Assembly (NCBI GenBank): GCA_913048385.1
Contig: CAJWVZ010000010.1
Coordinates: 1 to 64,000 of the forward strand
DNA from: an uncultured Gammaproteobacteria bacterium
GTDB taxonomy: Bacteria > Pseudomonadota > Gammaproteobacteria > Pseudomonadales > Pseudohongiellaceae
DNA: 64,000 bases
Direction of reading: 5' to 3'
Shown here: piece by piece, positions 6,162 through 21,269 of the stretch
Layout of the letters: the number at the start of each line of letters is the position of its first letter
Numbering within the stretch: position 1 is the stretch's first letter
Made by a program: the position numbers and the translations under genes
The notes under the pieces: model-generated
Told to the model about the DNA's origin: nothing
Databases searched by the model: none
Seen by the model: the letters and a program-made list of their open reading frames with translations, nothing else

Positions 6162-6571
6162 GTAAAACAGAAAAAACTGAACTGCAGGCTTTTTTGTCCA
6201 AAGAGTTTCCCCAGAAAAATTTTCTAATCGAATCCTTTGAAAAAAACACTGTGACTGTAAGGCGTATAGTTAGCAGTGCTGACTTGCGCCCAGGTGGGAC
6301 TATTTCTGGCCCAACAATGATGGACCTCGCAGACTGCGCGCTCTATGTTGCGGTATTACGGGAAATTGGCATAGTTGCACTAGCTGTGACGACGAGTCTT
6401 AATATCAACTTCCTACGAAAGCCGGTCGCTGGAAAAGATTTATTAGGTGTATGCAAAATACTAAAACTAGGCAGATCGTTAGCAGTGGGAGAGGTCTCGA
6501 TATATTCTGAAGGCGACGACGAACCCGTTGCCCATTCTGTAGGAACTTATGCGATACCTACCGACAAGTAG
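6158..6571 (+). CDS. PaaI-family hotdog thioesterase
   Basis: 137 residues, GTG start overlapping the previous stop (GTGA). Hotdog fold of the PaaI/4HBT family: RPGGTISGPTMMDLADCALYVAVL contains the catalytic-region Asp on the central helix, followed by VTTSLNINFLRKPVAGKDLLGVCKILKLGRSLAVGEVSIYSEG. Family role: hydrolysis of acyl- or aryl-CoA thioesters; substrate unknown. Coupling to a secreted protein is unusual, and no linked catabolic genes show the pathway. Confidence 0.85.
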   Translation: MSKTEKTELQAFLSKEFPQKNFLIESFEKNTVTVRRIVSSADLRPGGTISGPTMMDLADCALYVAVLREIGIVALAVTTSLNINFLRKPVAGKDLLGVCKILKLGRSLAVGEVSIYSEGDDEPVAHSVGTYAIPTDK

Positions 6572-6713
6572 GTTACAACTTCAGCAGATAAAACGTGTCT
6601 TTTCGAGCCGCAGCAAATTAGCAAGATTTCAAAGTCTATTGCTTCTTGACCACCTTACTATCGACACGTTTTTTAGAAAAAATTAGTGAATATCGAAGCT
6701 TGTCATTAGTGTT

Positions 6714-6742
6714 GGGCGAGAGATACTCGCCCTGTCTGTTTT
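6714..6742. terminator. Hairpin between convergent genes
   Basis: Perfect 7-bp arms GGGCGAG (6714-6720) and CTCGCCC (6726-6732) with a 5-nt loop, followed by TGTCTGTTTT. Lies between the thioesterase (ends 6571, plus) and the gene at 6750 (minus); a moderate intrinsic terminator, mainly for plus-strand transcription. Confidence 0.5.
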
Positions 6743-6749
6743 ACAGTAA

Positions 6750-7076
6750 CTATTTACTCACTATTTCCATTGCTCCCTCATCGTCTACCACTGGAACTAT
6801 TGCGGACTCGCAAAGTTCATTCCATCCATATGCGAATTCCATTACAAGAGTGGGGTCATCAGCCTCTACTAAAACTATTCCTTGGCCGGTCGTGAGGTCG
6901 TGATATCTAGCAAGTTTTTTTGAACCATCTAGAAACTGAGCATCAAGTTCAGCCAGCGTCATAGAAGCAAAAACTTCATATGCTTCCGGCTCACATTTGA
7001 AATCAATCATGTATACCGCTGCATGAGTGATGTTACAAAACAATAACGCAATCGAAAGAACAATATATTTTTTCAT
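6750..7076 (-). CDS. Small secreted DUF3303-like protein
   Basis: 108 residues. Signal peptide MKKYIVLSIALLFCNITHA, then an 89-residue domain with FASMTLAELDAQFLDGSKKLARYHDLTTGQGIVLVEADDPTLVMEFAYGW (given here as the diagnostic region, residues about 36-86). The pattern HDL..GxGxxxxEADDP...EFAxxW is that of the DUF3303-type ferredoxin-like dimeric alpha-beta proteins, which are normally cytoplasmic. Export of such a domain is the unusual point. No linked gene; function unknown. Confidence 0.7.
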   Translation of the reverse strand: MKKYIVLSIALLFCNITHAAVYMIDFKCEPEAYEVFASMTLAELDAQFLDGSKKLARYHDLTTGQGIVLVEADDPTLVMEFAYGWNELCESAIVPVVDDEGAMEIVSK

Positions 7077-7291
7077 CCTAAAGCTCCAATAAGTTAAACA
7101 CAGATAATTATTACTGTGGTAGAAAACAAATCTGACTATAAGATAGCACCCAGCAACCGAATGGACTAGTCAAAACTGTGCAGTATCACATATATCAAGA
7201 GTCGATGACTTTGAAGGAAAGGAGGATCTTGCCGCGCATTAAATACTCACGGCAAGGCATCCACTTAATAAAGGTTCAGTTGGAAAAAATA

Positions 7292-8416
7292 TTAGTAACC
7301 AAAAGACTTTTGATAACCAATTTGAAATTGCCAATTAGTGCCCATTTGCGGGCCATTTAGATTCTGATTAATTGGCTTCGAAATTTCTAGTCCAATTCGG
7401 TCGTCATGACTTCCGGGAAATATCTTTACCAACTGGTTTAGGCCGAGAGAAAAAGAGGTTGTTGTGCCGCCGTAGTTTGATGGGTTCGCAGCTTGAACAG
7501 GCCCATTAATTCTTAGGTCCCTACCCGTAATACCACTTATATCTGAATAACTGATACCAGCAGAAACGGAAGTTTTTTGTGCAACAGACTTTTGAACCCA
7601 GGCATTAAGCGTACGAGAATTTCCAAATGCCCAAGCATCTTTCTGTAAATTAGTTCTCGCTCTACCTTGAAAGCCAAAAACCCAATCATTTTGTTTATTG
7701 TTTACAAACGTAAACGCACTTAAAAGCGACGTGCTCCCATCCCCAATTTGCATAGCATATGGCAGGACCATTTCTACACGCGTGTTCATAGGGGTAAGAA
7801 TATCCCCTGTCTCATCATTACTATTAAAGTTTTTTTCAATGCCGAGTTGAACGTGTGCTCTAAACTGCTCGCGCTCAAAAAGTTTTATCAGGGCAGATAT
7901 CGACAGTGACCTTAAATCTGAAGACTCTGTTTTGAATGAACCCAAAGCAGTGCGCTTTGATGGCATATCCATACCACCCATTGTTGGCATACTCATACCT
8001 CCCATGTTCGGCATAACACCCTTGAAGGTAAGAGATTGCATCTCTTTCTGTTCGAACATGGCCATGCTCATCAAGGTAATTGAGTCACTCGGCGCATGCA
8101 TAAGACCGAGCATCGCCATATCCATTTCCATTTTTTCAGGAACAATACTTAATTTTGTTGACATCATGCCACTTTGATATGGATTAGGATTCTCAATGAT
8201 TTCAGCCTCAGTAACTTTTCTACTTCCAATCAGGTTATCCGCCATCGACATCCCTACGTAACGCGCAGAAAACATCCATTCGCCCTTATTATGATAATGA
8301 TCACCCATAATACTTATCGGCGCATGACTAATTGCTAATTCATTTGAATCAGCAAAAACCTTTATTGGCTCATTTAAAGAACAGAGGGTAAAAATACTGA
8401 TAAATAATTTTTTCAT
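7292..8416 (-). CDS. Outer-membrane beta-barrel with Met-rich loop (MetA-pathway/transporter-like)
   Basis: 374 residues. Signal peptide of about 22 residues (cleavage near VFADS). The mature start HAPISIMGDHYHNKGEWMFSARY and the following MDMAMLGLMHAPSDSITLMSMAMF match the PF13557-type outer-membrane proteins often found with heavy-metal resistance genes. The C-terminal half is built of amphipathic strands ending in a C-terminal aromatic (QIGYQKSFGY), as for Bam substrates. Residues 134-153 form a Met/Gly-rich stretch with repeated MPxMGGM units, a likely soft-metal (Cu/Ag) ligand region. No copper efflux genes are adjacent. Function as metal-related porin is inference. Confidence 0.75.
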   Translation of the reverse strand: MKKLFISIFTLCSLNEPIKVFADSNELAISHAPISIMGDHYHNKGEWMFSARYVGMSMADNLIGSRKVTEAEIIENPNPYQSGMMSTKLSIVPEKMEMDMAMLGLMHAPSDSITLMSMAMFEQKEMQSLTFKGVMPNMGGMSMPTMGGMDMPSKRTALGSFKTESSDLRSLSISALIKLFEREQFRAHVQLGIEKNFNSNDETGDILTPMNTRVEMVLPYAMQIGDGSTSLLSAFTFVNNKQNDWVFGFQGRARTNLQKDAWAFGNSRTLNAWVQKSVAQKTSVSAGISYSDISGITGRDLRINGPVQAANPSNYGGTTTSFSLGLNQLVKIFPGSHDDRIGLEISKPINQNLNGPQMGTNWQFQIGYQKSFGY

Positions 8417-8836
8417 TGGATAGACTCGACATTTAAAAAGCGGAGGTTATGCAGGCAACACCAAAATGTCGATTAGGCATAATGTCACATGAGACAATAT
8501 GTCGCATCTCAAAACCAGAATACCTTACTTGAGGTTACCCACACCCTCTTCCCCCGCAAATTTCCTAAAAGAATCCTATAACAAACCTTACATAACAAAG
8601 GTGGGTAATTTTAATGGGTCGAAATGGTCAGATTGGTTTGGCCCGACAGGTTTAAACTTTGTTGGTGATGTTGCCTTTTAATCGTCGTAGAAAAGAAGTG
8701 TAACAACTTATTTTGTATTTGATGTGCTAGTGTATCTAGGGTAGCTTGTATTGGCATAAATGCGACTATTTTCCACTTACGGTCGCACTCAAGATAAAAA
8801 TTTAAACAGTGGTGTTCACCACGAGGATATCTCGAT
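8417..8836. other. Intergenic region with inverted repeats
   Basis: 420 bp between divergent genes at 8416 and 8837, presumably carrying both promoters. Visible structure: TGTC-N6-GACA at 8483-8496 within a run of ATGTC words (8466-8502), near the leftward gene; and a perfect TGCGAC/GTCGCA pair at 8761-8766 and 8782-8787. An ORF of 60 codons (8499-8681) has no convincing ribosome site and is not called. Confidence 0.4.
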
Positions 8837-9970
8837 ATGAATCTTGTAGATAAACCAATAGTTTTTGCGGCTTGTACACTAGCGATGAGTTTGCTTTCAG
8901 CTTCTTCGATGGCGCAAGACCACAGAGATATAGGTGACGTTGGAGACAGTCCATACGAAGTCGTGACGTATTGGGCTGAGCCTTTTGCAGAAAAAGGATT
9001 CGCTTTTGGCGGTGCATCGGGGGTATTGTCAGACCACCCGGGACGCCTGATCGTAAGTCAGCGGGGTGAAACCAAAATACCTTTAGATGTACCTCGAGAT
9101 TTCCACGGATTTGCAGGCGAACTCGGCATCAGCGTTTTAACTGAGGGTGAAAGACGAACCTGGCAGAACTGCATTTTTATTCTTGACGCAAACGGCAAGG
9201 TGGTCGATGTCTGGGACCATCTTGATTACCTCTGTGAAGGAGCCGATGGCCCGGGTCCGGAACGTATCAGAGTCAGCCCTTATGATCCTGAACGCAAGCT
9301 ATGGGTGATTAACCAAACTCATCATCAAATTTATGTTTTAGCCAATGATGGCAGTGCGCTATTAGCAACATACGGTGAAAAAGGAGAGCCAGGCAAAGAC
9401 GCAACGCACTACGGCAGTCCGCAAGATGTAGCATTCATGCCAGATGGCCGAATCCTCGTAGCAGATGGCCTGATTAATAATCGTGTTGTCGTATATGATA
9501 ACGAAATGAACTACATGACTGAGTTTGGCACAGAAGGGGCTGTTCCTGGTGGGACTAATGGAATACATTCTCTAAGCATAGGACCTGAAGGACGGATCTT
9601 TGTTCTAGACCGATCAGGTAACGGAGTCAACATCTGGCGAACAGGAGAGAGCTTCACGGAATTTAACTTTGAGCGTCGCATTGATATTTCGGGTATGGCG
9701 TTAGATGTTATTGTAAACAAGGACGATTTTTGGATGACAGCTCACAATCCGTTGCGCTTCATTAATTTTGATTTTGAGGGCAACCAAAAATACACTTGGG
9801 TGGTTCCTGCAGAATTACCTGACGGTTTCCGTGAAGTTCATAGCTTTAGTGTTTCTTCCGAGGGCGTGATGTACGGAGGCGATAATATCTACGGCCGGCC
9901 CCAGAAATGGATAGCCAAACCCGGCGCGAGTCCAGAGCTGCTGATCGAACCACCGTGGATTGGATACTAG
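8837..9970 (+). CDS. Secreted NHL-repeat beta-propeller protein
   Basis: 377 residues. Signal peptide MNLVDKPIVFAACTLAMSLL, cleavage near SSMAQD. Six-bladed propeller of the NHL type: blades with PERIRVSPYDPERKLWVINQ, YGSPQDVAFMPDGRILVADG, GTNGIHSLSIGPEGRIFVLDR and EVHSFSVSSEGVMYGGDN. Similar domains occur in peptidyl-amidoglycolate lyases and in many bacterial periplasmic proteins of unknown role. ATG 8837 follows GAGGATATCTCG. Stands alone; a weakly connected small gene at 10038 follows after 67 bp. Confidence 0.75.
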   Translation: MNLVDKPIVFAACTLAMSLLSASSMAQDHRDIGDVGDSPYEVVTYWAEPFAEKGFAFGGASGVLSDHPGRLIVSQRGETKIPLDVPRDFHGFAGELGISVLTEGERRTWQNCIFILDANGKVVDVWDHLDYLCEGADGPGPERIRVSPYDPERKLWVINQTHHQIYVLANDGSALLATYGEKGEPGKDATHYGSPQDVAFMPDGRILVADGLINNRVVVYDNEMNYMTEFGTEGAVPGGTNGIHSLSIGPEGRIFVLDRSGNGVNIWRTGESFTEFNFERRIDISGMALDVIVNKDDFWMTAHNPLRFINFDFEGNQKYTWVVPAELPDGFREVHSFSVSSEGVMYGGDNIYGRPQKWIAKPGASPELLIEPPWIGY

Positions 9971-10037
9971 ACTGTGTGCTGATGTGGTGTGGGCTATGTT
10001 TTGAGGTATTTAGGTAACTTTAACTTAGGAGGACGTC

Positions 10038-10409
10038 GTGGATCTTACAAAACCTGATGGAAATGGCCAGCTTAAAATCACGCGGATGACAATCGAGCCA
10101 GACTGCGCGACCTTTGACTATGAAGGACAAGTTGAGGGGTATGGCTCCGTGTTTTGCTCTCACGTCATGGAATCTGTCGACGGAGATCGAACAAGAGGGG
10201 TAATGAACGGTGAGGCTAGAACTTTTTTAACTGATGGAACCTTAATTACTGCTCCACACCGAGGAACATTCAAAAGAGACAAATCCACCATCAAACTATT
10301 TTTTACTGATGCGGTGGACAACGGAGCAGTGAATTTTGTTGTCTGGAATATCGACGTATTATCAAAAAATGTCGATGTCAGTTATTGGGAGATAGAGTCA
10401 CCGAACTAA
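10038..10409 (+). CDS. Small beta-rich protein, unknown function
   Basis: 123 residues, GTG start fixed by a perfect AGGAGG at 10027-10032, 5 nt upstream. No signal peptide. Sequence suggests a lipocalin-like or allene-oxide-cyclase-like small barrel: ATFDYEGQVEGYGSVFCSHV, GVMNGEARTFLTDGTLI, HRGTFKRDKSTIKLFFTDA. I do not recognise a named family with certainty. Separated by 67 bp from the propeller gene and 86 bp from the next small gene; could be co-transcribed with either. Confidence 0.6.
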   Translation: MDLTKPDGNGQLKITRMTIEPDCATFDYEGQVEGYGSVFCSHVMESVDGDRTRGVMNGEARTFLTDGTLITAPHRGTFKRDKSTIKLFFTDAVDNGAVNFVVWNIDVLSKNVDVSYWEIESPN

Positions 10410-10495
10410 TTTCCCATTTCTACACCTGTTTTATTTTAGAAAAAAACCGTGATTTATACCTACTTGCTACGTCAACGCTAAAGGGAGAAAGTCTA

Positions 10496-10645
10496 ATGCC
10501 ATCTGAAGATATTACCTACGACAACCGATTCGCTGAAAGTTTCTACTATGATGAATCGGAAAAAGAGGCTTTGCGTATGAGTCGTACGGATAAAGTTGCT
10601 AAATTTCCGTCAGCTAATGCTCGTTATTCCCGCCCTGAGAGTTAA
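10496..10645 (+). CDS. Small acidic hypothetical protein
   Basis: 49 residues starting at ATG 10496 with AGGGAGAAAG upstream; the longer in-frame start at 10385 lies inside the previous gene and has no ribosome site. Sequence MPSEDITYDNRFAESFYYDE then KEALRMSRTDKVAKFP: hydrophilic, probably disordered, no domain. Too short for a function call. Confidence 0.45.
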   Translation: MPSEDITYDNRFAESFYYDESEKEALRMSRTDKVAKFPSANARYSRPES

Positions 10646-10698
10646 GCAAGCACAAAGGTAGCGGGAAAGAACCCGTAGATGTCACGACAATTTTGCTG

Positions 10699-11820
10699 TC
10701 ATGCCCATGGGTCTCTCATGGCCTCAAAAAATGCATGGTGACCATCAACTATTTGGCGCGTCTTCTCTGGATCAGGTGTTGTATCCCAATTATTTCTTTC
10801 GAAAGTTCCGCCGAGAAGTATCCCATCACTCCGCGGGAACATATAAAGCCCGCCATTTCCGATGATTATGTAATCGACCTCATTCTGAGGTAACAGAAAG
10901 GTAAGCTGTCCTTTTATAGGGATTAGATCACTGTCATTAAATAACATCCGCGACCCTAGCCCCGTACAATTGATGATTACTGGCTCCTCAAGCTGCAGAA
11001 CTTCATTAGTATCTTGAAATTCTTTGACAAGTATTTCCCCACCAGCAATTTGAAAATCATTCATCATAGCTGGCAAATAAATGGCCGGTTCAATCAACAT
11101 AGTATCCATATGCAACACATGCGTAGCATCGAATGGATGTTGTGACGGGTTTAATTGACTGCGCTCTGGATACATGTCGCTATATGTTGAATAAAGACTG
11201 CCGGGTTCATCTGGATTATCAGCTATCATATAGTTACTTATCCAGCGCACGCCGTATTTCGAACCAACTAGATTTTGAAAATAGCGATAGGAATGGCGCA
11301 TCGCACTTTCAAATTGGGCAAGAAATACCGGTGAAACTGCATCATTGTCATAGACTGAAGTCGGTGACCATTGCCCGCCTGCAACATTAGATGTAGTGTT
11401 TGGCGGTAAATCTTTAGCATAAATACTTACCTCCCAGCCGGCATTTTGCATTAGTCTAGCTGCAGAGAGTCCTGCGGCTCCGCAGCCCAAGATTGCGCAA
11501 CGCTTATGTTGAGTTTGGATAGCAAGTTCCATGGCTAAATGAGAAGTGCCCCACGATAATGTAATACCGCCACCACCGTGACCATAATTATGGATTACCA
11601 CTTTTTCATTCATTTGTTCAGCGCTAACAACGAAACCTTTGGAACGAAAGGGACGTAATCCCGCGATAGAGCGAATAATCCTATCTTCGGAGACATTAAC
11701 GCGACGTAATGGTGAGCCTGAAGGCGTATAATTCCTAGAATCTTTTTGATTTGTGGTCACGCAATTCGTAAGCAAAGGGAACGCAGCCATTGACTGCAGA
11801 ATTTGTCGTCTGTTTATCAC
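10699..11820 (-). CDS. FAD-dependent D-amino-acid-oxidase-like protein, permuted motif order
   Basis: 373 residues. N-terminus MINRRQILQSMAAFPLLTNC looks like a twin-arginine/lipoprotein leader (Arg4-Arg5, Cys20). Residues 77-85, HNYGHGGGG followed by ITLSWG, match the block that is near the C-terminus of D-amino-acid oxidase. The FAD Rossmann motif (AILGCGAAGLSAARLM, residues 109-124) and the VAGGQWSP segment, N-terminal in ordinary DAO, come after it. So the motif order is circularly permuted. The remaining domain includes INCTGLGSR and PIKGQLTFLLP. Likely oxidises an amine or amino acid outside the cytoplasm; substrate unknown. Isolated gene. Confidence 0.8.
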   Translation of the reverse strand: MINRRQILQSMAAFPLLTNCVTTNQKDSRNYTPSGSPLRRVNVSEDRIIRSIAGLRPFRSKGFVVSAEQMNEKVVIHNYGHGGGGITLSWGTSHLAMELAIQTQHKRCAILGCGAAGLSAARLMQNAGWEVSIYAKDLPPNTTSNVAGGQWSPTSVYDNDAVSPVFLAQFESAMRHSYRYFQNLVGSKYGVRWISNYMIADNPDEPGSLYSTYSDMYPERSQLNPSQHPFDATHVLHMDTMLIEPAIYLPAMMNDFQIAGGEILVKEFQDTNEVLQLEEPVIINCTGLGSRMLFNDSDLIPIKGQLTFLLPQNEVDYIIIGNGGLYMFPRSDGILLGGTFERNNWDTTPDPEKTRQIVDGHHAFFEAMRDPWA

Positions 11821-11936
11821 GATTTCCCCCTCATTTTATTTAGGCTACTTCAATTTATTGGATACAGCTCGCGGTGTCTCCTCAAAATTAATCCTGTAAG
11901 CTATCTTGAATTACATAATATTTCATTGGTTTAATT

Positions 11937-11977
11937 ATTTATAGTAGGCTATCCCACTTACTAAAGGTAAATTTGAA
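11937..11977 (+). repeat. Upstream element copy, before serine hydrolase
   Basis: TTATAGTAGGCTATCCCACT followed by TACTAAAGGTAAATTTGAA, running directly into ATG 11978 and supplying its ribosome site (AAAGG). Aligns with copies at 13361, 19031, 21208 and 22507. Confidence 0.7.
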
Positions 11978-13369
11978 ATGATCAAAATACTAACAACAAC
12001 CGCATTCCTGATTTCACTTTTCGTATGTACATTCTCAAACGCAGCCAACGATTTGTACTTTCCAATGGAAGACACTGATTGGGAAGTCATTAGCCCGAGC
12101 GAGGCAGGCTGGGATCCGGCGCTGCTAGCAGAGGCCGTGAAACTCGCCGGAGACAGAAAGAGCAGCGGTCTCTTAATATTACAGAATGGAAAGATTATAG
12201 CCGAGCAATACTGGGAAAGACCGGATGCCTCTTTAAGATACCGAAACAGTCTCCAAAAATTTGACTTACAAAACCGCCCTATTGAGGACGTAGCATCTGT
12301 ACAAAAAAGTATCACAGCGATTCTAGTCGGCATTGCTCAGACCCGAGGATTTCTGACATTGGAAGATTCCGTTAGTTCATATGTCGGTTCGGGATGGTCC
12401 AACGCTTCTCTAACCCAAGAGTCAGCAATTACAATACGTCACCTACTTACAATGACAAGTGGTCTTACAAGTGATCTTTTTTTTGAAGATAAACCTGGCG
12501 AAAAATGGTTTTACAATACGCCCGCGTACCACCTCCTTATGCCAGTAGTTAGCGCAGCTACAGGAAAAACGAGAGATGAAATAACTCACGAGTGGTTAAC
12601 AAAACCTCTAGGCATGACAAATTCTTTTTGGGTGTTAAGAAATTCGGACTCTTCTGAGAATGTATTTGGCTTTGCTACCACAAACCGAGATTTAGCTCGT
12701 GTTGGTTTGATGATTCAAGGTGGCGGTCAATGGAAAGACGAAGTAATTTTTGAAGATCCAAATTTTCTGCAAGAAATGTTAAGCCCGTCACAAAACCTAA
12801 ACCCATCATACGGTTATCTCTGGTGGCTAAATGGGCAAACTTTTTCACTTGGGTTTTCATCTGATGCTGTACGAAGTAGCGGCCCTATAATTTCTGAAGC
12901 GCCCCCCGATCTGATAGCTATGCAAGGAGCTCAAGACCGGAAACTATACTTAGTTCCCAGCCTTAATCTTTTAATCACACGCCTCGGCGAAACCGGCAGT
13001 GCCGATGGTGTAACTTTTAATACCGCTTTTTGGAAAGCTCTTCTCAAAGCAAAGCCGAAAATAAAAAATACAAATGCTTCCTTTGACTCAGGTAGCGGAG
13101 TACTGACTATCCCCGCTGTGAATGTTGATAAACAATCTTTCTATGTAGAGATGACACTCAACAATTCTAAAACTTTAGATTTCGTTTTGAGCGCATCATT
13201 CATTCAGCAAAAAAATCCTGACCCACGCGCGGCAACATTTTCTCTCAGAAACAGAATGCTCTCTATTCCAATTGTTGATACAGTTTCCAATGCTTACAGA
13301 GTGAATCTTCTACTAATAAAAGATACCCCACCAACTTTCCGCGTTATAGCAACGTACGTATTAGGCTAG
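11978..13369 (+). CDS. Secreted serine hydrolase (beta-lactamase/transpeptidase-like)
   Basis: 463 residues with a signal peptide (MIKILTTTAFLISLFVCTF, cleavage near NAAND). Class C/EstB-type fold: SxxK as SVQK at 107-110 (preceded by DVA), YNT at 179-181 as the Tyr-Asn equivalent, and helices around IRHLLTMTSGL. Residues beyond about 350 form an extra beta-rich C-terminal domain of about 110 residues (SFDSGSGVLTIPAVNVDKQ). Family members are esterases, D-aminopeptidases or D-Ala carboxypeptidase-like enzymes; a true beta-lactamase role is unlikely but not excluded. Flanked on both sides by copies of the recurring element (11937 and 13361), which makes it a cassette-like unit. Confidence 0.85.
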   Translation: MIKILTTTAFLISLFVCTFSNAANDLYFPMEDTDWEVISPSEAGWDPALLAEAVKLAGDRKSSGLLILQNGKIIAEQYWERPDASLRYRNSLQKFDLQNRPIEDVASVQKSITAILVGIAQTRGFLTLEDSVSSYVGSGWSNASLTQESAITIRHLLTMTSGLTSDLFFEDKPGEKWFYNTPAYHLLMPVVSAATGKTRDEITHEWLTKPLGMTNSFWVLRNSDSSENVFGFATTNRDLARVGLMIQGGGQWKDEVIFEDPNFLQEMLSPSQNLNPSYGYLWWLNGQTFSLGFSSDAVRSSGPIISEAPPDLIAMQGAQDRKLYLVPSLNLLITRLGETGSADGVTFNTAFWKALLKAKPKIKNTNASFDSGSGVLTIPAVNVDKQSFYVEMTLNNSKTLDFVLSASFIQQKNPDPRAATFSLRNRMLSIPIVDTVSNAYRVNLLLIKDTPPTFRVIATYVLG

Positions 13370-13403
13370 CTCATTTACTAAGGGTAAATTTCAAAAAAGA
13401 GCG
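13361..13403 (+). repeat. Upstream element copy at the end of the serine hydrolase
   Basis: TTAGGCTAGCTCATTTACTA then AGGGTAAATTTCAAAAAAGAG. The TAG stop of the serine hydrolase (13367-13369) lies inside the element, so the repeat begins within the last codons of that gene. Direct repeat of 11937-11977. Confidence 0.65.
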
Positions 13404-13462
13404 TTAGACTAGCGCTGGCATCAAGAAGCTGAACTCGCGTATTTATTTAGGCATCACGCACT

Positions 13463-14365
13463 ATGGAACTTTGGATTGCATTCACCATCAGCGCCGCTTT
13501 TTTTCAAACATTAAGGTTTATACTGCAGAAATTACTCAGCACCTCAACTCTGACGTCGGCAGGAGCGACTTTTGCTCGGTTTTTTTATTCTGCTCCCTTA
13601 GTCGTCTTTTTTTTGAGTCTCTATTTCACGCTGACTGAAACCTCTTTCCCCGCAACCTCATTATGGTATTGGGCCTTTGCCTTATCGGGAGGTCTCGCAC
13701 AAATTTTGGCGACAGTCTGCGTTATTTTGCTATTTAAAACACGAAATTTCGCAGTTGGCACAACGTTTAAAAAAACTGAGGTGATCCAAACGGCATTGAT
13801 AGGCTTTTTGATTTTAGGCGATTCTATAGGTCAGGCAGGGTTGACTGTTATTTTGATTGGTTTGATTGGCGTTTTATTACTGTCAGAGATGCCTGAAATA
13901 CGAGGCGACTGGTTTAGAAGAATTAATAATTACCCTTCTAAGCTTGGTGTTTTATCAGGATTTCTATTTGGCATATCGGCTGTTTGTTATCGCGGCGCGT
14001 CGCTTGAGATAGACAGCACCGATCCTTTACTGCGCGCTGGGGTTACCTTGGCCTGCGTTACCTCTGCGCAATTAATCGGAATGGCATCTTGGCTTCGCTG
14101 GTTTCAGCCGGGACAAATCAGTGCGGTCTGGGCCGCTCGACGAGGCGCAGCTTGGATTGGACTGACTTCGATGGCGGGTTCGTTTTGCTGGTTTACCGCT
14201 TACACACTCCAAAACGCTGCCTATGTAAATGCGCTTGGCCAAATTGAACTGATATTTAGCCTAATCGCATCGGTATTTTTCTTTAAAGAACGGATCACCA
14301 AAAAAGAATTGGCCGGACTCAGCTTTTTGGCAATCAGTATTTTCGGAATTGTTTTTCTGATTTAA
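13463..14365 (+). CDS. DMT-superfamily (EamA) transporter
   Basis: 300 residues with ten predicted membrane helices arranged as two EamA halves (about residues 1-140 and 160-300). Motif-like features: GGLAQILATVCVILLFKTRNF and a C-terminal half with YVNALGQIELIFSLIASVFFFKERI, the usual end of a drug/metabolite transporter with the PxxxxxGxxxLxE-type helix. Probably an inner-membrane exporter of a metabolite or amino acid; substrate unknown. The stop is followed by an inverted repeat (AACCTGAT 14375-14382, ATCAGGTT 14418-14425). Confidence 0.85.
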   Translation: MELWIAFTISAAFFQTLRFILQKLLSTSTLTSAGATFARFFYSAPLVVFFLSLYFTLTETSFPATSLWYWAFALSGGLAQILATVCVILLFKTRNFAVGTTFKKTEVIQTALIGFLILGDSIGQAGLTVILIGLIGVLLLSEMPEIRGDWFRRINNYPSKLGVLSGFLFGISAVCYRGASLEIDSTDPLLRAGVTLACVTSAQLIGMASWLRWFQPGQISAVWAARRGAAWIGLTSMAGSFCWFTAYTLQNAAYVNALGQIELIFSLIASVFFFKERITKKELAGLSFLAISIFGIVFLI

Positions 14366-14374
14366 AATTTGGTT

Positions 14375-14457
14375 AACCTGATAGACAATTCATACGAATA
14401 TGTCGATTGCGTTTTCCATCAGGTTGGGAGAGTCTGGCCATACGGTTTTTAGTTACT
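14375..14457 (+). repeat. Inverted repeat plus partial upstream element copy
   Basis: Outer arms AACCTGAT (14375-14382) and ATCAGGTT (14418-14425), inner CATA-CGAA-TATG (14391-14402). Immediately after comes GGGAGAGTCTGGCCATACGG then TTTTTAGTTACT (14426-14457), which aligns with the first half of the upstream element in the copies at 19031 and 22507 (GGGAGAGGTCTGGCGCTACGG). The second half is missing. Leads to the gene at 14472. Confidence 0.5.
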
Positions 14458-14471
14458 GTCAAAAAAATTGA

Positions 14472-15761
14472 ATGCTAAAATGTTCTAAGCTTATTTCTCA
14501 GCTTAAACCCGAGGACAATCAGTTGCCATATTATAAAAGCGACGAACTAATCAAGTATGAAAGCCTCACCCAACTATATGACAGATCGCTAACTGTTCAT
14601 GGAATTAAAATTGTTGCAGGCGCAGAAGTCAGTGGTAACAAGGCCGTGCCCGACGACTGGGTATATAAAACGGCCAGGGTAATACAGCTGCTGTTAAACC
14701 CAAAGGGACAAGAAATAGACAGCGTTGCACAAGAAAATGCCATTAAGATACTGAAGGGGGAAAGTGGTACTTTCCATGCAGGTTCACCTACTGTTCAAAG
14801 AACGCTTTACGGCAGTGGGGACAGCTATGAATTTAACCCATTGCGCTCACCAGAGAAATGGAAAGGCTTGGATGAACACAACGATATCCATGTTAGTAAC
14901 GATATGGTCTGGTACAGAAATGTCGAATCCCCGAATCCTCCCACAGGTAGAAATGATATCGCTGAAATCATGGAGCATGTACTTCATACAATCCATATGC
15001 TCGGGATTAAAGGAGCCGTCGAGGGGTCGTTACAAGCTCTAAATGGATCGGATCAATCCAGTGAAGTATACAAGGCGATGAGTGAAGCGGTTAAGAATGA
15101 TGCTTTTGATTTGGAGGGATACGGCGGAAGCTTGGATAGGGACCTTGGTTTTACGGGTGAGGTAATTTTAAAAGAATATCTCTACTTGTTAACGTTTGGA
15201 ATGTGGGAATACAACGAATTTTGGGATAAAGGGTCGTTAGCACCTGAATGGTCAGATTCGGCTAGAACACCTACAGGAGTTCTAGATTTGAACCCTCTAG
15301 GCTATGCACTTTTTACGAAGTATCTGGCTCCAGTTATTTCTCGACCGAGCACAGACATTTTGCTTGACGTGTTCCAAAATAATGATCAAGGAGCTCATGG
15401 CTATCTTTCAGATACAGTCGAACGAAACGTCATTTCGCTGATAATAGAAGAGGGCATTGTTGCAGAGTCGGCGCTGACAGTTTCTGACTTAAATGAAGAA
15501 ATAGTGCGTAACGGTCAGGATGTATTAAGTCATACGATAGAATATGGAAGCCAAGTTTATGCATATCAGGATATTGATCAGTTTATTATGGTTTACCTGA
15601 GAAATGACGAGTTTTCTTCAGAGTACCAAAAAGAAATAGCTGATAGCTTTCCCGACTACAGTACCGTTAGCTATTCTGAAGTAGTTTCACTTGTTGGGGT
15701 AACCGGACTGAGTGATGCGATATTACAAATCGCTAGTGCTGACGGGACCTTTGTCGTCTAA
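14472..15761 (+). CDS. Unknown protein, possible type I-secreted zincin-like protein
   Basis: 429 residues, no signal peptide and no membrane segment. A helix at residues 163-175 reads EIMEHVLHTIHML, giving an ExxxHTxH pattern that resembles, but does not match, a metzincin HExxH site. The protein is acidic, and its last residues (ILQIASADGTFVV) have the hydrophobic C-terminal ending seen in many type I secretion substrates. The domain resembles a region found attached to some RTX-type proteins of marine bacteria, but I cannot name the family. Second C-terminal part (about 330-429) is helical. Function not assigned; no ABC exporter nearby. Confidence 0.6.
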   Translation: MLKCSKLISQLKPEDNQLPYYKSDELIKYESLTQLYDRSLTVHGIKIVAGAEVSGNKAVPDDWVYKTARVIQLLLNPKGQEIDSVAQENAIKILKGESGTFHAGSPTVQRTLYGSGDSYEFNPLRSPEKWKGLDEHNDIHVSNDMVWYRNVESPNPPTGRNDIAEIMEHVLHTIHMLGIKGAVEGSLQALNGSDQSSEVYKAMSEAVKNDAFDLEGYGGSLDRDLGFTGEVILKEYLYLLTFGMWEYNEFWDKGSLAPEWSDSARTPTGVLDLNPLGYALFTKYLAPVISRPSTDILLDVFQNNDQGAHGYLSDTVERNVISLIIEEGIVAESALTVSDLNEEIVRNGQDVLSHTIEYGSQVYAYQDIDQFIMVYLRNDEFSSEYQKEIADSFPDYSTVSYSEVVSLVGVTGLSDAILQIASADGTFVV

Positions 15762-15805
15762 CATCGCAGAATCATTCACCCTAAAAATGGTTTTAGAGCT
15801 TTATT

Positions 15806-15828
15806 TGGTGCCGAAGGCCGAACTTGAA
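15806..15828. repeat. tRNA-Leu 3'-end fragment (att-like)
   Basis: TGGTGCCGAAGGCCGAACTT plus GAA: 22 of 23 bases equal the 3' end of the tRNA-Leu gene at 24241-24263, in the same orientation (complement of a tRNA 3' end with CCA). The sequence diverges at once on the right, so it is not a full tRNA. Such a fragment is what integration into a tRNA 3' end leaves behind. Confidence 0.65.
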
Positions 15829-15901
15829 TGGGAATTCATATCATATACTTACAGTACTTTGAGTATTTCACCTACCATTAACCAATCCCAGATGAAGTTT
15901 T

Positions 15902-16054
15902 CTACAAATTTTTACCACAGCATTTTTTAAATTTACGGCCATTACCACAGATACATGGATCGTTGCGTCCAACCTTTGGAGCGTTGCGTGTGATAGGCGT
16001 TTTTGAAGGACAACAGCTTGTGTCGGTGCATTTAGGTTTTTCGTTCATATTCAT
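15902..16054 (-). CDS. SEC-C zinc-motif miniprotein
   Basis: 50 residues, missed by long-ORF rules. The C-terminal half reads [20 protein letters not shown], a complete SEC-C metal-binding motif (Cys-x-Cys...Cys-Cys) as at the C-terminus of SecA and in many small proteins. The N-terminal half has a CTDTSCC cluster. Two in-frame ATGs (16054, 16048); the first is used here. Probably binds zinc; role unknown. It lies just inside the att-like fragment at 15806. Confidence 0.75.
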
Positions 16055-16139
16055 TCCAAGTTATCCCATTGGTGGGGTAGCAAGTATACCCGAGGGGCAT
16101 CCCATCTTTAAGCAAATAAGTAAGCGCGATGCTTAAAAC

Positions 16140-16607
16140 TTAACCTCCGTTGTTATTCGTAGCCTTTATCTGGCGTATAGAAAGATAGAACATCACGGGC
16201 ACTACCAGCACCAGTATTGGTTGTACAAGTGCGGCAGGCGCCACTGATACTGTCTCTATACTTTTGAAAAATGCCAAGATAATTCGCGAACCCCATTCGA
16301 AAAATATAAAGATATACATCAGTGGAATCAGACGCCGATAACGCAATGCCACAATAAGATACATCACACCAATCATCAGTTGAGCAATCCCCCATTGCGC
16401 AAATAGAAAGATCACACCCTCTGCGCCGCCTTGAGTAAAAGCATCCAATGGGATCGTCGCAATAGACTGAGCACCGCCATCTCCCGCAAATATATGAACA
16501 CAACTTCGGCAGATTGTGAGCAACGTTATAAAGTAGAAGAAAACCAAAGAAAGCCTGTGTCCTTCAAAGGCATTGTCCACTTGGCCCGGTAAGATTTTTT
16601 CTAACAT
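16140..16607 (-). CDS. Small integral membrane protein, unknown function
   Basis: 155 residues from ATG 16607, which follows AAAAGAGATAAACTT; the in-frame extension to 16700 lacks a ribosome site. Four predicted helices: LSLVFFYFITLLTICRSCVH, GVIFLFAQWGIAQLMIGVMY, LIPLMYIFIFFEWGSRIILAF and ALVQPILVLVVPVMFYLSI. The pattern resembles the uncharacterised small four-helix membrane proteins common in marine gammaproteobacteria; no enzyme motif is visible. Confidence 0.65.
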   Translation of the reverse strand: MLEKILPGQVDNAFEGHRLSLVFFYFITLLTICRSCVHIFAGDGGAQSIATIPLDAFTQGGAEGVIFLFAQWGIAQLMIGVMYLIVALRYRRLIPLMYIFIFFEWGSRIILAFFKSIETVSVAPAALVQPILVLVVPVMFYLSIRQIKATNNNGG

Positions 16608-16948
16608 AAGTTTATCTCTTTTCGTTATTTTATGATTTATGCTCTCAAGGAGACTAGTATTCCCCTCGTTGAAAGAAAGTGCAATCAAACACGCAACCAA
16701 CTACCCCACCCCCTTTTTTCTAGTATTCCTCTACCCCGCACCCCACCCCTGGGGGTACACCCCGATAAGACAGAATGGTTCCATTGTGCCCGTATACATA
16801 CTATTCTGGACGAAGAATCAGCCTTTTTATAAGGGCATCATGTTAACGTCGCTTTTTGGAAGCTGAGATATTACGATTTATACTCGCGATATTTTGCAGA
16901 ACGATGCTGCCAACATGTTTACATCAACTTATTGGGGCGTATAGTTAA
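16608..16948. other. Intergenic region, C-rich tract
   Basis: 341 bp between divergent genes at 16607 and 16949. It contains an unusual C-rich stretch (about 16701-16762) with CACCCCTGGGGGTACACCCC; the strand asymmetry (C on plus) is unlike the neighbours. No ORF with a convincing ribosome site; the two short overlapping frames at 16632-16866 are not supported. Confidence 0.4.
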
Positions 16949-17872
16949 ATGATAAAGATCTTTATCACTCTCCTTCTAGCAATTGTCGTATCTTTTCCTA
17001 CCTCTTATTTTTATTTTAAATATTCTTTTCTCAATAATTTAAAAGCTAATTCTGAGATAGTGGAGACTAGTTTAGGCTCTGTTGAATACACCCTGAAGGG
17101 GAATACTGGTCCAGTTTTACTCTTTATTCATGGGACGCCTGGCGGGTACGATCAGACGGCTGAGGCGACTGACAAGTTCAGAGTATTGACTCCATCAAGA
17201 CCTGGATACCTACGAACATCTATTCTTCTTGGGAAAACTCCTCTTGAGCAAGCCAAGGTTTTTAAGGCACTACTTGATGCATTGGGTATCGATAAAGTAA
17301 CAGTAATGGGGGTTTCTGGTGGCGGCCCTTCATCTTTGGAATTTGCTGCAAAATTTCCAGAAAGAACACATGGGTTGATTGCTTTTGAGGCGGTAAGCTA
17401 CGCAGAAGATTTTACTGAAACCGATGCAGAAATCATTAGCGCTTCTGATTTTAGTCTTTGGATTCAACTTGCTTCTATGTCTTTTCTGAGCAATAAAAAT
17501 CTTGCTTCTGCGATCCTTCCTAACCCAAATAACAGGGAAAAGCTTCTTAATGAACCAAAAAATGTAGAAGAGCTAAAAAAATTAGTTTGGTCAATTTGGC
17601 CACTAAGTGCAAGACAAGAAGGGATTAAAAATGATTATGAGCAATTTTCAAATTTCTCCGCTCCGCTAAATGAAATTACAGTCCCGACATTGGCTATTCA
17701 TGGAAATGAAGACATTAATGTAGACATAAGTCATGCAACAACGCTAATTGAAAATATTCAGGGTGCTGAGTTATACACAGTAAAGGGAGGAGACCATTAC
17801 ATGAGTTCAACTCATTCCGAAGAAATAAATCCTTTGATTGAAAAATTCATTCTTGAATATAGCCTTCAGTAG
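16949..17872 (+). CDS. Membrane-anchored alpha/beta hydrolase
   Basis: 307 residues. One N-terminal membrane segment (about residues 4-24), then an alpha/beta hydrolase domain: oxyanion motif HGTPGG at 61-66, nucleophile elbow GVSGGG at 121-126 (Ser123), an Asp in HGNEDINVDISH and the catalytic His in GGDHYMS near the C-terminus. Complete catalytic set, length normal. Probably faces the periplasm as an esterase or similar; substrate unknown. Its AT content is higher than in the flanking core genes. Confidence 0.85.
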   Translation: MIKIFITLLLAIVVSFPTSYFYFKYSFLNNLKANSEIVETSLGSVEYTLKGNTGPVLLFIHGTPGGYDQTAEATDKFRVLTPSRPGYLRTSILLGKTPLEQAKVFKALLDALGIDKVTVMGVSGGGPSSLEFAAKFPERTHGLIAFEAVSYAEDFTETDAEIISASDFSLWIQLASMSFLSNKNLASAILPNPNNREKLLNEPKNVEELKKLVWSIWPLSARQEGIKNDYEQFSNFSAPLNEITVPTLAIHGNEDINVDISHATTLIENIQGAELYTVKGGDHYMSSTHSEEINPLIEKFILEYSLQ

Positions 17873-17957
17873 CTTGAACTTTTGGAAATCACGAGAAACT
17901 CTGATTATTCACCCTTTTTTTACAGCAATAAAGAATTTAGATATAGAGGATTTACAA

Positions 17958-18113
17958 ATGAGATTTGCGTTCGCGACCATCTTAATTAGTTTTTCAGCAG
18001 CGTTGTCTGCTCAAACAGGTGCGCTAAATACTCCACAGGGGAACTTAATTGGTGAGCTCTCAGATAAGGCAAGTGCTGTGCGTGTATTTCGTGGCATAAA
18101 AGGTGAATTTTAA
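17958..18113 (+). pseudogene. Truncated N-terminus of a type B carboxylesterase
   Basis: 51 codons with a good ribosome site (AGAGGATTTACAA). Signal peptide MRFAFATILISFSAALSAQT followed by TPQGNLIGELSDKASAVRVFRGI, which is the start of a carboxylesterase type B domain (usual continuation PYAxPPVGxLRW). Instead the frame passes into KGEF and stops, and the break coincides with a copy of the recurring element (ATAAAAGGTGAATTTTAAAA). The remaining 450 or so residues of the enzyme are absent from the window. Interpreted as a recombination remnant; the small secreted peptide could still be made. Confidence 0.7.
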
Positions 18114-18120
18114 AAAAGGT
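18097..18120 (+). repeat. Short upstream element copy fused to the esterase remnant
   Basis: ATAAAAGGTGAATTTTAAAA then AAGG aligns with CTAAAGGTGAATTTGAAAAA of the copy at 19101. It contains the stop codon of the esterase remnant and leads to the leader ORF at 18128. Confidence 0.5.
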
Positions 18121-18127
18121 ATTGGGC

Positions 18128-18217
18128 ATGATCAAACCGTTAACTGCAATAACTCTTCTATGCCTGTCTATTGTAATTCCCGCCGCCTCCAACAGAAGTG
18201 CTATCATATTTTCATGA
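18128..18217 (+). CDS. Short leader ORF (signal-peptide-like), coupled to the next gene
   Basis: 29 residues, MIKPLTAITLLCLSIVIPAA then SNRSAIIFS. Hydrophobic, like a signal peptide with no mature protein. Its stop TGA (18215-18217) overlaps the ATG of the membrane protein at 18214 (ATGA). Homologous to the leader at 21774 in both sequence and arrangement, although the genes behind them are unrelated. Either a decayed gene start or a functional coupling leader. Confidence 0.5.
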   Translation: MIKPLTAITLLCLSIVIPAASNRSAIIFS

Positions 18218-18699
18218 TAGAACAACAAATCCTTATAACAATAGCAACGCTTGCTGTAACTCTAGCTGGGTTTTCAGGTGTAGTGGGTATTTTTACTAAA
18301 GAACTGCCTGATGATAAAACCCATAAACTAGAAACTTTATTATTTCAAAGTGGTGCAGCGTTATTTGCCTCTCTTACTACTCTAATTACTTCTCAGATAG
18401 ATGGAGCTTTAAAGAGTGAAGAAGAGTTTAGAGAGTTTTGGATGATCTCTAGTTGGGTTTACATAATCATTACAATAATAGTTTTGACTTTTGCTACTAT
18501 CGATATAATCAAAACTAAGAGTTACAAGGAAATTAATTACGATATTCTATTTTATTTTTCTTTCTTTGTTGTTATTGCGCTGCTAATTTTTAATGCACTA
18601 TATATTCAAGATGCTTATTTATTTCATATAGCGCTGGAGATAAACCTAGCTTTTGCATTCGTGTCTTTTTACACGCTAGTAATACCTCCAAAAGGATAA
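18214..18699 (+). CDS. Small membrane protein, four predicted helices
   Basis: 161 residues from ATG 18214, inside the ATGA overlap with the leader ORF; starting at 18103 would extend it through the leader in another frame and is not supported. Predicted helices: ILITIATLAVTLAGFSGVVG, LFQSGAALFASLTTLIT, VYIIITIIVLTFATIDII and a C-terminal pair (ILFYFSFFVVIALLIFNALY, IALEINLAFAFVSFYTLVI). The first helix with AVTLAGFSGVVGIF resembles a family of small uncharacterised bacterial membrane proteins. No function known. Confidence 0.65.
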   Translation: MIEQQILITIATLAVTLAGFSGVVGIFTKELPDDKTHKLETLLFQSGAALFASLTTLITSQIDGALKSEEEFREFWMISSWVYIIITIIVLTFATIDIIKTKSYKEINYDILFYFSFFVVIALLIFNALYIQDAYLFHIALEINLAFAFVSFYTLVIPPKG

Positions 18700-19030
18700 A
18701 TTAATAATAAAGAGAGGAGTTACTGCAGGTTGTGGATAATTACAAACACTGTAACTCAATGTCCTACTCCCCCCCTTGCTCTATTTGATGTTACCAAGAG
18801 TGTTACTAAAATCTAAAGCCATTGCACTCAAGATCCCTCCTCCCAAAACTATTTGAACCCGAGTCTGTATTTCGAAAAGGCGTGGCTGGCAAGGTATACA
18901 GCATGGGCTTCTTAAACTTGGAGAGAACATCTCTTAACAGAAGTCCAAAATACCTCGCCAACCACCAAAACGTCCCGACTTCTTAAACGTAAGCTTTAGC
19001 AAAACCCTTCGCATGAAGTTGAAGGGTGAG
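18700..19030 (+). other. Intergenic region with long stem-loop
   Basis: No gene seen. Main structure is a stem-loop with arms GTGGCTGGCAAGGTAT (18882-18897) and ATACCTCGCCAACCAC (18950-18965), 14 of 16 paired, loop of 52 nt. The loop holds a nested imperfect pairing GGGCTTCT/AGAAGTCC. A second hairpin follows, AACCCTTC/GAAGGGT at about 19003-19027. Framing bases are shared with the element at 4767-4833. The region ends in the upstream element at 19031. Confidence 0.6.
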
Positions 19031-19117
19031 TGATTTTTAGGGATGGGGAGGGTCTGGCTTTGCGGTTAATATTTATAGTACGCTAACCCACTTACTAAAG
19101 GTGAATTTGAAAAAGAG
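19031..19117 (+). repeat. Upstream element, full-length copy
   Basis: From TGATTTTTAGGGATGGGGAG through GGTCTGGC, GCGGTTAATATTTATAGTAC, GCTAACCCACTTACTAAAGG and TGAATTTGAAAAAGAGG, up to the ATG at 19127. By eye about 87 percent identical to the copy at 22507 over about 92 bp, although the genes that follow are unrelated. Contains TATAGT as a possible -10; no good -35 is evident. Confidence 0.75.
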
Positions 19118-19126
19118 GACAGCGTA

Positions 19127-21109
19127 ATGAAATATTTTTCGGTAGGTAATCTTGAATATTTAGTTTCCAATGTGGCCTCATTGTTACCAGAGAATTATCG
19201 CGAAATAAAACCACAGTGGGGGCTTGCGACAAGTGAAATATTCTTGTTGGAGAATTATGATAATCCTGTTGTTTTGGTAGCTCCAGAAAACGATCAGGAT
19301 TCGGAGGACTGGCCTCTAGGTATATTTGAATTGGACGGTGATGTCGAGAAGATAGATTGGATTGGCTTTAACAACTGGAGCTCGTACAGCGGTACTTTCT
19401 TATTTGATGCAAACGATGATGGGCTCAGTGATCTATTCGTGCCGGGCCAAAGTGGGCATAATCCGACCGGCTCTCAAGGAGAGATACCTTTCCTTGCGTT
19501 GAATAGTAAATCTGGGTTCGAAGATATTTCAGGCGATGTTTTTACTGAACCGTCATATACCCATGGTTGGACTTTTGGGGATTTTGATGGCAATGGGTTT
19601 ACTGACATCGTCTTAAACAGTCTAAAGTACGATGAATTGCCCTTATCGACTATAATGATGAGTCAGGGCGACGGTACGTTCGTTAGCCGACGCGATTTAT
19701 TACCTGCTGAAATTGCGGGTGATAAAGCCATGCCTCCTTCGGGCCCTCAGCTACCAAATTACATGTCACTCGCGATTCGCAGTGGTGACATGGATAATGA
19801 TGGTGATTTAGATCTGATTGTTCCAGAATATAAAACTAATGGTTGGGAGGAAGATAAAGGTTTTTTCCTGAAAAAACTTAATCCCCAGATTTGGATTAAT
19901 GACGGGTCTGGAAAATTTTCATTTTCTGAAAAAATACTGCCCTTATACGATCAAACAGCATCCACGTATTTCGCGAACGATCTCGAGGTTGTTGATATTA
20001 ATAAAGATGGAAAACTTGAAGTTATATACGCCGTTGATACCGGAGACATAGGTGTAAACGAAAACTACTTGTCTGACCATCTTGTGATTCTGCAAGAAAC
20101 TGATGCTGAAGGGTATCAAAATGTTGCAAAAAAATTGGTCGGTAATGATAAGTTAAAAGTCGATGGATATTGGCCAATTGATATTAGTTATAATGATCTA
20201 AATGTCGATGGATATGAAGATATAGTGGTCTCACTCTCTCCTTGGGGTGGGGTCGATGCAAAAGACCCGGCAGTTGTAATTTATTACAACAATGGTAACG
20301 GGTATTACTCTCCTGAGCTCGTTTCCGTTTCTACACAATGGGCTGTCAATTTTAAACTTTTTGATGATGATGGTGATGGTGTTCGCGACGCCTACATGTT
20401 CAATCGTGGGAACACTGTAGACGGTGAAGGCTCTTATGTTCGCTATTCCGGTCAGTTAATTAATCAAGTTAAGGATAGATCAGGCACTGATGGGGACGAT
20501 ATCTTAGTTGGTTTTGGTGATGGCGGTGTACTAAGTCCCGGGCTCGGTAATGATCTTCTGGTTGGTGGCAATGGAGTAGACGTTGCGTCTTTTGCTATTG
20601 CATCAAATCAGGTTTCTTTGCTTAAGTCTTCGTCAGGTGTAAGCGATCACGATTGGAAAATAAAGACTGAAGTAGAAAACAACACCTTAATTTCGGTAGA
20701 AAGAATTTCATTTAAAGATAAAAAAATAGCTCTAGATCTCGAAGGAAGTGCCGGCATCACGGCAAAAGTCTTGGGCGCTTTCCTGGGTGAAGCAGGCGTG
20801 TCTCAACCAGATTTAGTAGGCATTGGTCTTGGTCTTGTAGACAATGGGCTCACATATGAAGGGTTTCTAGAACAAGCAATCGTTGCTATTTTTGGACCTG
20901 ACCCAAGCGGTGCCGATATGGTGAAGCATTTTTATCAGTCTCTCACCGGTCAAGCAGCGCCTGAAGCTTTAGTTAATCAGTATGCCGGTTTAATTGATGG
21001 TGGCAGTCTGGCTCCGGTTGATCTTGCGATGCAAGTCGCTGAGAGCGAATTGAACATACAAAACGTCGGTTTAATTGGGTTGACTCAAACTGGATTGGAT
21101 TATATTTAA
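19127..21109 (+). CDS. FG-GAP/VCBS-repeat protein with RTX and DUF4214-like C-terminus
   Basis: 660 residues, acidic, no N-terminal signal peptide. Residues about 95-440 carry FG-GAP/VCBS repeats with calcium-loop patterns (DANDDGLSDLFV, DFDGNGFTDIVL, DMDNDGDLDLIV, DINKDGKLEVIY, NVDGYEDIVV, DDDGDGVRDAYM). Around residue 453 begins an RTX-like segment (GTDGDDILVGFGDG, GLGNDLLVGGNGVD). The last 110 residues (SLTGQAAPEALVNQYAGLID) resemble DUF4214-type modules. Features indicate a calcium-stabilised beta-propeller exported by a type I system to the surface or medium. Partner or substrate unknown; no exporter genes nearby. ATG 19127 follows AAAAAGAGGACAGCGTA. Confidence 0.8.
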   Translation: MKYFSVGNLEYLVSNVASLLPENYREIKPQWGLATSEIFLLENYDNPVVLVAPENDQDSEDWPLGIFELDGDVEKIDWIGFNNWSSYSGTFLFDANDDGLSDLFVPGQSGHNPTGSQGEIPFLALNSKSGFEDISGDVFTEPSYTHGWTFGDFDGNGFTDIVLNSLKYDELPLSTIMMSQGDGTFVSRRDLLPAEIAGDKAMPPSGPQLPNYMSLAIRSGDMDNDGDLDLIVPEYKTNGWEEDKGFFLKKLNPQIWINDGSGKFSFSEKILPLYDQTASTYFANDLEVVDINKDGKLEVIYAVDTGDIGVNENYLSDHLVILQETDAEGYQNVAKKLVGNDKLKVDGYWPIDISYNDLNVDGYEDIVVSLSPWGGVDAKDPAVVIYYNNGNGYYSPELVSVSTQWAVNFKLFDDDGDGVRDAYMFNRGNTVDGEGSYVRYSGQLINQVKDRSGTDGDDILVGFGDGGVLSPGLGNDLLVGGNGVDVASFAIASNQVSLLKSSSGVSDHDWKIKTEVENNTLISVERISFKDKKIALDLEGSAGITAKVLGAFLGEAGVSQPDLVGIGLGLVDNGLTYEGFLEQAIVAIFGPDPSGADMVKHFYQSLTGQAAPEALVNQYAGLIDGGSLAPVDLAMQVAESELNIQNVGLIGLTQTGLDYI

Positions 21110-21207
21110 GTTAATAAAAATATCTGGTCACGGTTATCATCTGCATATGTAAAATATGACTGTAAAGAAAAAAAGATTAAAGAATAAAGCGAATTAATAT
21201 AAGAAGA

Positions 21208-21246
21208 GGGCTAGGCCACTCACTAAAGGTAAATTCGAAAAAAATA
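21208..21246 (+). repeat. Upstream element copy
   Basis: GGGCTAGGCCACTCACTAAA then GGTAAATTCGAAAAAAAT, aligning with the distal half of the element (GGCTAACCCACTTACTAAAGG). Lies 24 bp before the small membrane gene pair at 21270. Confidence 0.65.
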
Positions 21247-21269
21247 AAAAAGATTTTGGATTTAAAAAA

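Follow-up and report, generated by a model that had tools for sequence, protein, structure and literature searches.

A serine hydrolase gene in the 64,000-nucleotide stretch of DNA analysed here (the window) lies exactly between two direct repeats, raising the question of whether the gene is a mobile one-gene cassette. The original prediction had described this layout and had assigned it as well to a VCBS gene and a small-gene group further along. Both descriptions are accurate: repeat copy 1 extends into the hydrolase start codon (ATG, 11978), copy 2 (13349–13397) spans the stop codon TAG, and the VCBS gene (copies at 19066 and 21194) and the small-gene group (21194 and 22542) are bounded in the same way (Table 1).

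A direct repeat bounds the hydrolase gene

The 49-nt repeat, R (type A), occurs five times on the forward strand of the window, with 69–88% identity to the copy at 19066, taken as reference. A 32-nt core of R matched the window five times and 100 dinucleotide shuffles not once; across the source genome of the window (G000; 2.52 Mb in 37 contigs) it has 11 copies, and a reversed control pattern has 0. With a 58-position sequence model of R we recovered 13 matches in G000, 12 with E < 1e-8 and one at 4e-6. Strong matches to the model (E about 1e-8 or better) were present in 4 of the 84 genomes of the genus, namely G000, G028 (MED855, PAEL01), G082 (FRAM_WSC20, CASIAB01) and G078. Among named GTDB genomes, the core was found in two MAGs of the group (MED855 and FRAM_WSC20) and in one contig from Bacillota, which we treat as a chance match; a search of viral contigs found none. 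Other R copies, outside the window island described below, lie near tRNA-Arg and tmRNA in G000 and near tRNA-Met in G028.

The upstream extent of R varies, with some copies carrying a GC-rich 5′ module of about 50 nt that both hydrolase copies lack. By sequence comparison, this type A module resembles the reverse complement of the 5′ half of a second repeat, type B. Copy 2 begins inside the last hydrolase codons, placing the stop codon (13367–13369) within its GGCTAG. Because a gene start lies downstream of every window copy (5/5), in most cases with a purine-rich stretch at the R 3′ end, flanking a unit and leading a gene are inseparable from the window alone. Dyad and fold tests gave nothing significant in R or type B. 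An Rfam search of positions 6000–25000 returned only a tRNA and one sub-threshold chance match, indicating that R is no known structured RNA leader, and an identity as a riboswitch or known RNA was rejected for want of an Rfam match.

Table 1. Features of the window and related repeat-associated fragments
Feature	Position	Strand	Remarks
FADox, FAD-dependent oxidoreductase (PF01266)	10699–11820	-	Divergent neighbour of the hydrolase; conserved beside it in G028
R copy 1 (type A)	11932–11980	+	Reaches hydrolase ATG 11978; 56 bits, E 6e-16
Serine hydrolase, 463 aa	11978–13369	+	Beta-lactamase/PF00144 family
R copy 2	13349–13397	+	Overlaps hydrolase stop codon; G028 homology ends here
Exchanged unit with EamA transporter gene (13463–14365)	13398–14421	+	Peptidase+SnoaL unit there in G028
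R fragment, 5′ module only	14422–14455	+	79% over 34 nt; start of p429 block
p429, 429-aa protein	14472–15761	+	Block 95% identical in G028
tRNA-Leu(GAG) 3′-end fragment	15806–15828	-	22/23 nt; left edge of segment missing in G028
Type-B repeat, degenerate	16692–16826	+	Copy of ~105-nt separator with dozens of occurrences in relatives
R 3′-end fragment	18099–18119	+	Precedes leader-peptide ORF
R copy 3	19066–19114	+	5′ module from ~19031; precedes VCBS/FG-GAP gene 19127–21109
R copy 4	21194–21242	+	Precedes small-gene group
Type C leader-peptide module and DUF2147 gene	21774–22324	+	88% identical to G016, leader ATG to gene end
tRNA-Leu 3′-end fragment	22363–22391	-	28/29 nt; right edge of segment missing in G028
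R copy 5	22542–22590	+	5′ module from ~22500; precedes TPR gene 22600–24204
tRNA-Leu(GAG), anchor	24241–24326	-	Island abuts its 3′ end
tRNA/tmRNA 3′ fragments near separators	Window 22363; L015 16995; G082 C11 16546, 30668, 43234; L137 5700		

The hydrolase is part of a larger block

Hydrolase matches occurred in 21 of the 84 genus genomes. Apart from the match in G028, the longer ones are mostly 50–57% identical and end near residue 361, without the last ~100 residues. In the window protein these residues (~358–463) form an extra domain of two similar halves, which has no NCBIfam name and is unmatched by Pfam in the hydrolase. A search for this domain, covering loci chosen around R, also found it in two other R-bordering proteins of G000 (L015 9801–10856 and 18401–19921).

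Comparison with the sister genome G028, the one close genome available to the analysis, showed the same blocks as the window on a single contig (C90, L019), in a different order. FADox, R, hydrolase and R (window 10604–13397) make up one collinear 2.8-kb block, 84% identical between G000 and G028, which speaks against the earlier proposal that the hydrolase is a cassette in its own right. That proposal had also called for a search of related genomes for an empty site with one repeat left behind, and none was found for the hydrolase in the one close genome compared.

Hydrolase homologues inspected in 10 relatives share none of the neighbours seen in the window and lack R, and at just 43–57% identity they do not demonstrate recent movement of the gene. 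In G016 and G047, FADox is accompanied by an ABC-transporter-like gene (named by eye) where R and the hydrolase would be, and neither genome has a hydrolase match at E below 1e-20. These two observations together indicate that the pairing of hydrolase and FADox is branch-specific; the hydrolase does not always keep the same neighbours, and it is constant neighbours, with no empty site anywhere, that the original prediction had named as fatal to the cassette idea. On plasmids we found only distant hydrolase homologues, all below 60% identity.

Units are exchanged within a tRNA-anchored island

Homology between G000 and G028 halts where the R downstream of the hydrolase has its 3′ end (window 13397). 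Beyond this point G000 continues into EamA, and G028 into a leader fragment followed by two genes, one peptidase-like and one SnoaL-like; these two genes are present in G000 beside tmRNA (L018). Homology restarts before p429, at the fragment of the R 5′ module (window 14422–14427, L019 7324). The different content between R and this fragment in the two genomes indicates that the unit exchanged there is the EamA unit and not the hydrolase. The p429 protein itself has no Pfam, NCBIfam or PHROG match.

At L019 8704–8718, the p429 block of G028 is joined via a tRNA-Leu core, TGGTGCCGAAGGCCG, to the sequence that starts at 22376 in G000. The junction is a single chimeric tRNA fragment in which window 15806–15820 is directly joined to 22376 onward, and G028 is thus an exact empty site for window 15806–22376. 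It is the sole exact empty site found, and its borders are tRNA-Leu fragments, not R. The genomes compared in detail are drafts of tens to more than 100 contigs, whose ends often lie near repeats.

All three marks of a tRNA island are present: a variable region abutting the tRNA 3′ end, repeated tRNA 3′-end fragments at the borders, and presence or absence of a segment between genomes. GC content is 39% in 15.8–24.2 kb versus 44% beyond the tRNA. The reading that we favour, with a probability of about 0.6, is that the window holds an additive island on the 3′ end of tRNA-Leu(GAG), its units punctuated by R as a joining point.

The last codons of the TPR protein (22600–24204) are the repeat-associated AAAAAAGAAGTTAGTTAATGC, which starts another gene elsewhere, an apparent fusion at a unit join. 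Several partial tRNA-Leu copies, broken near the anticodon, stand beside tRNA-Leu in other members of the genus (G054 C68, G060 C180 and G055 C7), which suggests repeated insertions at one point. On a separate contig binned into G028 (C5, L154 3880–7503), a large protein resembles, by eye, a T7-type phage RNA polymerase, and the contig ends in a truncated recombinase; the polymerase look-alike marks the contig as probably phage DNA.

Related genomes carry further separators

In G082, contig C11 carries 15 type-B copies within 31 kb (12.1–43.5 kb), all on the forward strand; a further copy, at 49.7 kb, is inverted. Successive copies are one to a few ORFs apart. Type-B copies are ~105 nt long and mostly 84–98% identical to their own consensus, and often end in GTTAGGY ahead of the next gene. 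In about six cases on C11 the gene after the copy is on the reverse strand, arguing that B separates units and is not a leader. Fragments of tRNA or tmRNA 3′ ends lie ~115–220 bp upstream of several separators in three genomes (Table 1); a tRNA fragment before every type-B repeat was considered and rejected, being seen in a minority only.

A third type, C, is a 74-nt leader-peptide module that precedes ~154-aa genes in G016, and the same leader precedes the window DUF2147 gene. Hydrophobic short leader-peptide ORFs (MNKLLTIITLLCFSVAANADLL-like) occur at window 21774–21840 and ~18111–18220 and in G016 (L132 8480–11150). The MNKLLTIITLLCFSVAANADLL-like ORF overlaps the next start codon (ATGA) and recurs before unrelated genes in several species.

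Whole units are shared between species. A 1,518-bp unit with all four edges in B is 97.2% identical between G078 (L135 190–1705) and G082 (L139 4432–5948), the secG-region DNA of the two genomes being 74–80% identical. A second unit shared by G078 and G082, with an alpha/beta hydrolase, is 92% identical and has one edge in B in both. The edges of the window DUF2147 unit shared with G016 are the leader start and the gene end, and the secG–tRNA DNA of this pair is 70% identical. The original cassette reading therefore survives in part: repeat-bounded units are exchanged, as with EamA versus peptidase+SnoaL and the type-B 1.5-kb unit, whereas the hydrolase as an independent cassette is not supported.

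Over all pairs, repeats with a margin of 20 nt on either side contain 23 of 137 shared-block edges versus 1.9% of the sequence, an enrichment that is supportive rather than conclusive because the edges are non-independent and shared repeats pull alignment edges to themselves; the count used regions picked around repeats. Block edges at 10604, 17911, 21710 and 22330 lie at no known repeat.

Recombinases and known recombination sites

The scanned window proteins, those of the island included, contained no integrase. A single tyrosine recombinase was detected in G000, a 400-aa protein on another contig (C7:83522–84721; L027 7523–8725), and XerC and XerD gave no match over threshold in this genome. 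The 400-aa recombinase is a chromosomal core gene of the genus, present in 69 of 84 genomes and in 47 of the 48 of good quality. A link between it and R is speculation, and with the recombinase in 69/84 genomes and strong R in 4/84, co-occurrence is uninformative on the point. In G082, a 496-aa integrase-like ORF (C2:175891–177381; L136 2892–4382) lies beside a type-B array, with about 115 bp between its end and the type-B repeat that follows; it is possibly degenerate in its first catalytic region.

The integron integrase model IntI (TIGR02249) had no match in G000 or G082 and scored over the family cut-off in 11 of the 84 genus genomes. Types A and B fold no better than shuffles on either strand, and their alignment is almost without covariation and yields no covariation-supported structure. 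The canonical attC sites of the IntI-bearing relatives (CATAACGCCC...GTTATGTG) are quite unlike A and B in sequence. We rejected an attC or integron identity of the repeats on the grounds of fold, sequence and missing IntI. A Xer/dif-like site was likewise rejected, as even the best local matches found to dif of E. coli are weak and dyads do not rise above the chance level.

Alternative explanations of the repeat

R could instead be a promoter or 5′ leader module spread before unrelated genes by duplication and transfer, with no cassettes and no recombination site. That all five window copies precede a gene start, in most cases with purine-rich 3′ ends, and that the type C leader ORF overlaps the next start (ATGA) would both follow, but in both genomes one R copy lies across the stop codon of the hydrolase, the content of units switches exactly at R, a B-bounded unit is common to two species as a whole, and B, standing before reverse-strand genes in about six cases, is at least in its own case a separator; we consider a pure leader unlikely. 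Less likely again is an independently mobile, one-gene hydrolase cassette bounded by R. Its exact R-to-R layout, the FADox genes without hydrolase in G016 and G047 and the homologues in other contexts without R would suit this explanation, but FADox–R–hydrolase–R is a single block in both close genomes, where no single-R empty site was found, and the homologues in 10 relatives are only 43–57% identical. The dispersal of R, with 84–93% similarity between species over ~75 nt including the 5′ module, recalls a short, MITE-like transposable element inserted in intergenic gaps, an origin made very improbable by the uniform orientation of R relative to genes, the lack of significant inverted repeats, the clustering in tRNA islands and the change of gene content at the repeat. 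We give least credence to an integron cassette array (CALIN) with the repeats as attC sites: ~105-nt repeats that share one orientation and divide units of one to a few genes, the frequent GTTAGGY end of type B and IntI over cut-off in 11/84 genus genomes would fit one, but A and B fold no better than shuffles with almost no covariation, the canonical attC of relatives differ and neither G000 nor G082 has IntI.

The main alternative concerns how the joins arise. Ordinary RecA homologous recombination, acting on repeat copies and the genes beside them, would exchange units with no dedicated site-specific system at R, in keeping with the search of the window island turning up no recombinase gene, with no XerC or XerD detected in the genome, with the missing dyad in R and B and the ragged repeat edges, and with type-B copies ~105 nt long and mostly 84–98% identical to consensus. 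Short, diverged repeats are poor substrates for homologous recombination, and the window R copies, at 49 nt and 69–88% identity, favour a site-specific step, against which the ragged edges and missing dyad count. Site-specific recombination in trans is in our judgement slightly ahead at R, and homologous recombination as the full account is a possible but rather unlikely explanation. Recombination at the repeats, by whichever route, is visible only through its outcome in the sequences compared.

Under the favoured reading of a tRNA island punctuated by R, segments inserted at the tRNA end and left tRNA 3′ fragments behind, as the fragments and the one empty site show. One- to few-gene units would be separated by R both in the island and at other tRNA and tmRNA ends of the genome, each R extending from the end of one unit over the leader and ribosome-binding site of the unit that follows. 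R would mark the joins at which units are exchanged, as is shown for one pair (EamA versus peptidase+SnoaL) and, across species, for the analogous type-B repeat. The hydrolase would be one R-to-R interval, set beside FADox before G000 and G028 split. Crossing-over at R may be the work of a recombinase acting in trans, which would best fit the short, diverged copies. A more far-reaching version, which we regard as doubtful, is a non-integron cassette system: tRNA-anchored arrays of small units in which unstructured ~50–105-nt direct repeats would be the sites of a trans-acting recombinase, with the 400-aa integrase as candidate, and units would cross marine species with unit-precise edges.

Relation to known islands and arrays

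Flexible genomic islands of the additive kind that sit at tRNA genes and contain repeated tRNA ends have been described as fGI1 of Alteromonas (PMC4119200), fGI1 of Ca. Actinomarinales (PMC7771536) and fGI-2 of Methylophilaceae (PMC10872708). Like these islands, the window has a conserved tRNA target, repeated tRNA ends that mark inserted cassettes, and content that differs between close genomes. The descriptions consulted give tRNA-end repeats only, whereas here a further repeat distinct from the tRNA ends (R, B or C) stands between the units and moreover bounds exchanged units down to one gene. Tycheposons are described as elements that carry cargo, have a tRNA at their border and encode a tyrosine recombinase (PMC10872708). 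Like the window island, they place cargo beside a tRNA gene of a marine bacterium; the window island differs in that a recombinase was looked for there and not found, and in that its units are about 1–7 kb with internal separator repeats. A separator repeat within tRNA islands is provisionally a new feature, no description having been met in a limited literature search.

Additive tRNA islands are a main source of marine bacterial gene turnover. If separator repeats, beyond tRNA ends, set the joins, such islands would amount to a cassette platform alongside integrons, and a scan of tRNA islands for lineage-specific separator repeats could reveal similar arrays. If the process is merely homologous recombination between leaders, the origin of unit-precise mosaics would still be explained.

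In ICE/IME and cis-mobilizable accretion arrays, successive insertion at one tRNA end leaves att fragments, and mobilisation in trans is possible. The window likewise shows successive tRNA-end insertion leaving fragments; unlike those arrays, its island has no recognised conjugation or mobilisation genes, and it carries a separator repeat besides att fragments. With integrons and CALINs it shares small-unit arrays, same-orientation repeats between genes and no integrase nearby, but its repeats are without the attC fold and arms and have tRNA ends, not intI, as their anchor, and no IntI was found in the genome. Genuine integrons, with IntI and canonical attC arrays, occur in the same genus, in G012 C2 (L148) and G025 C1 (L150).
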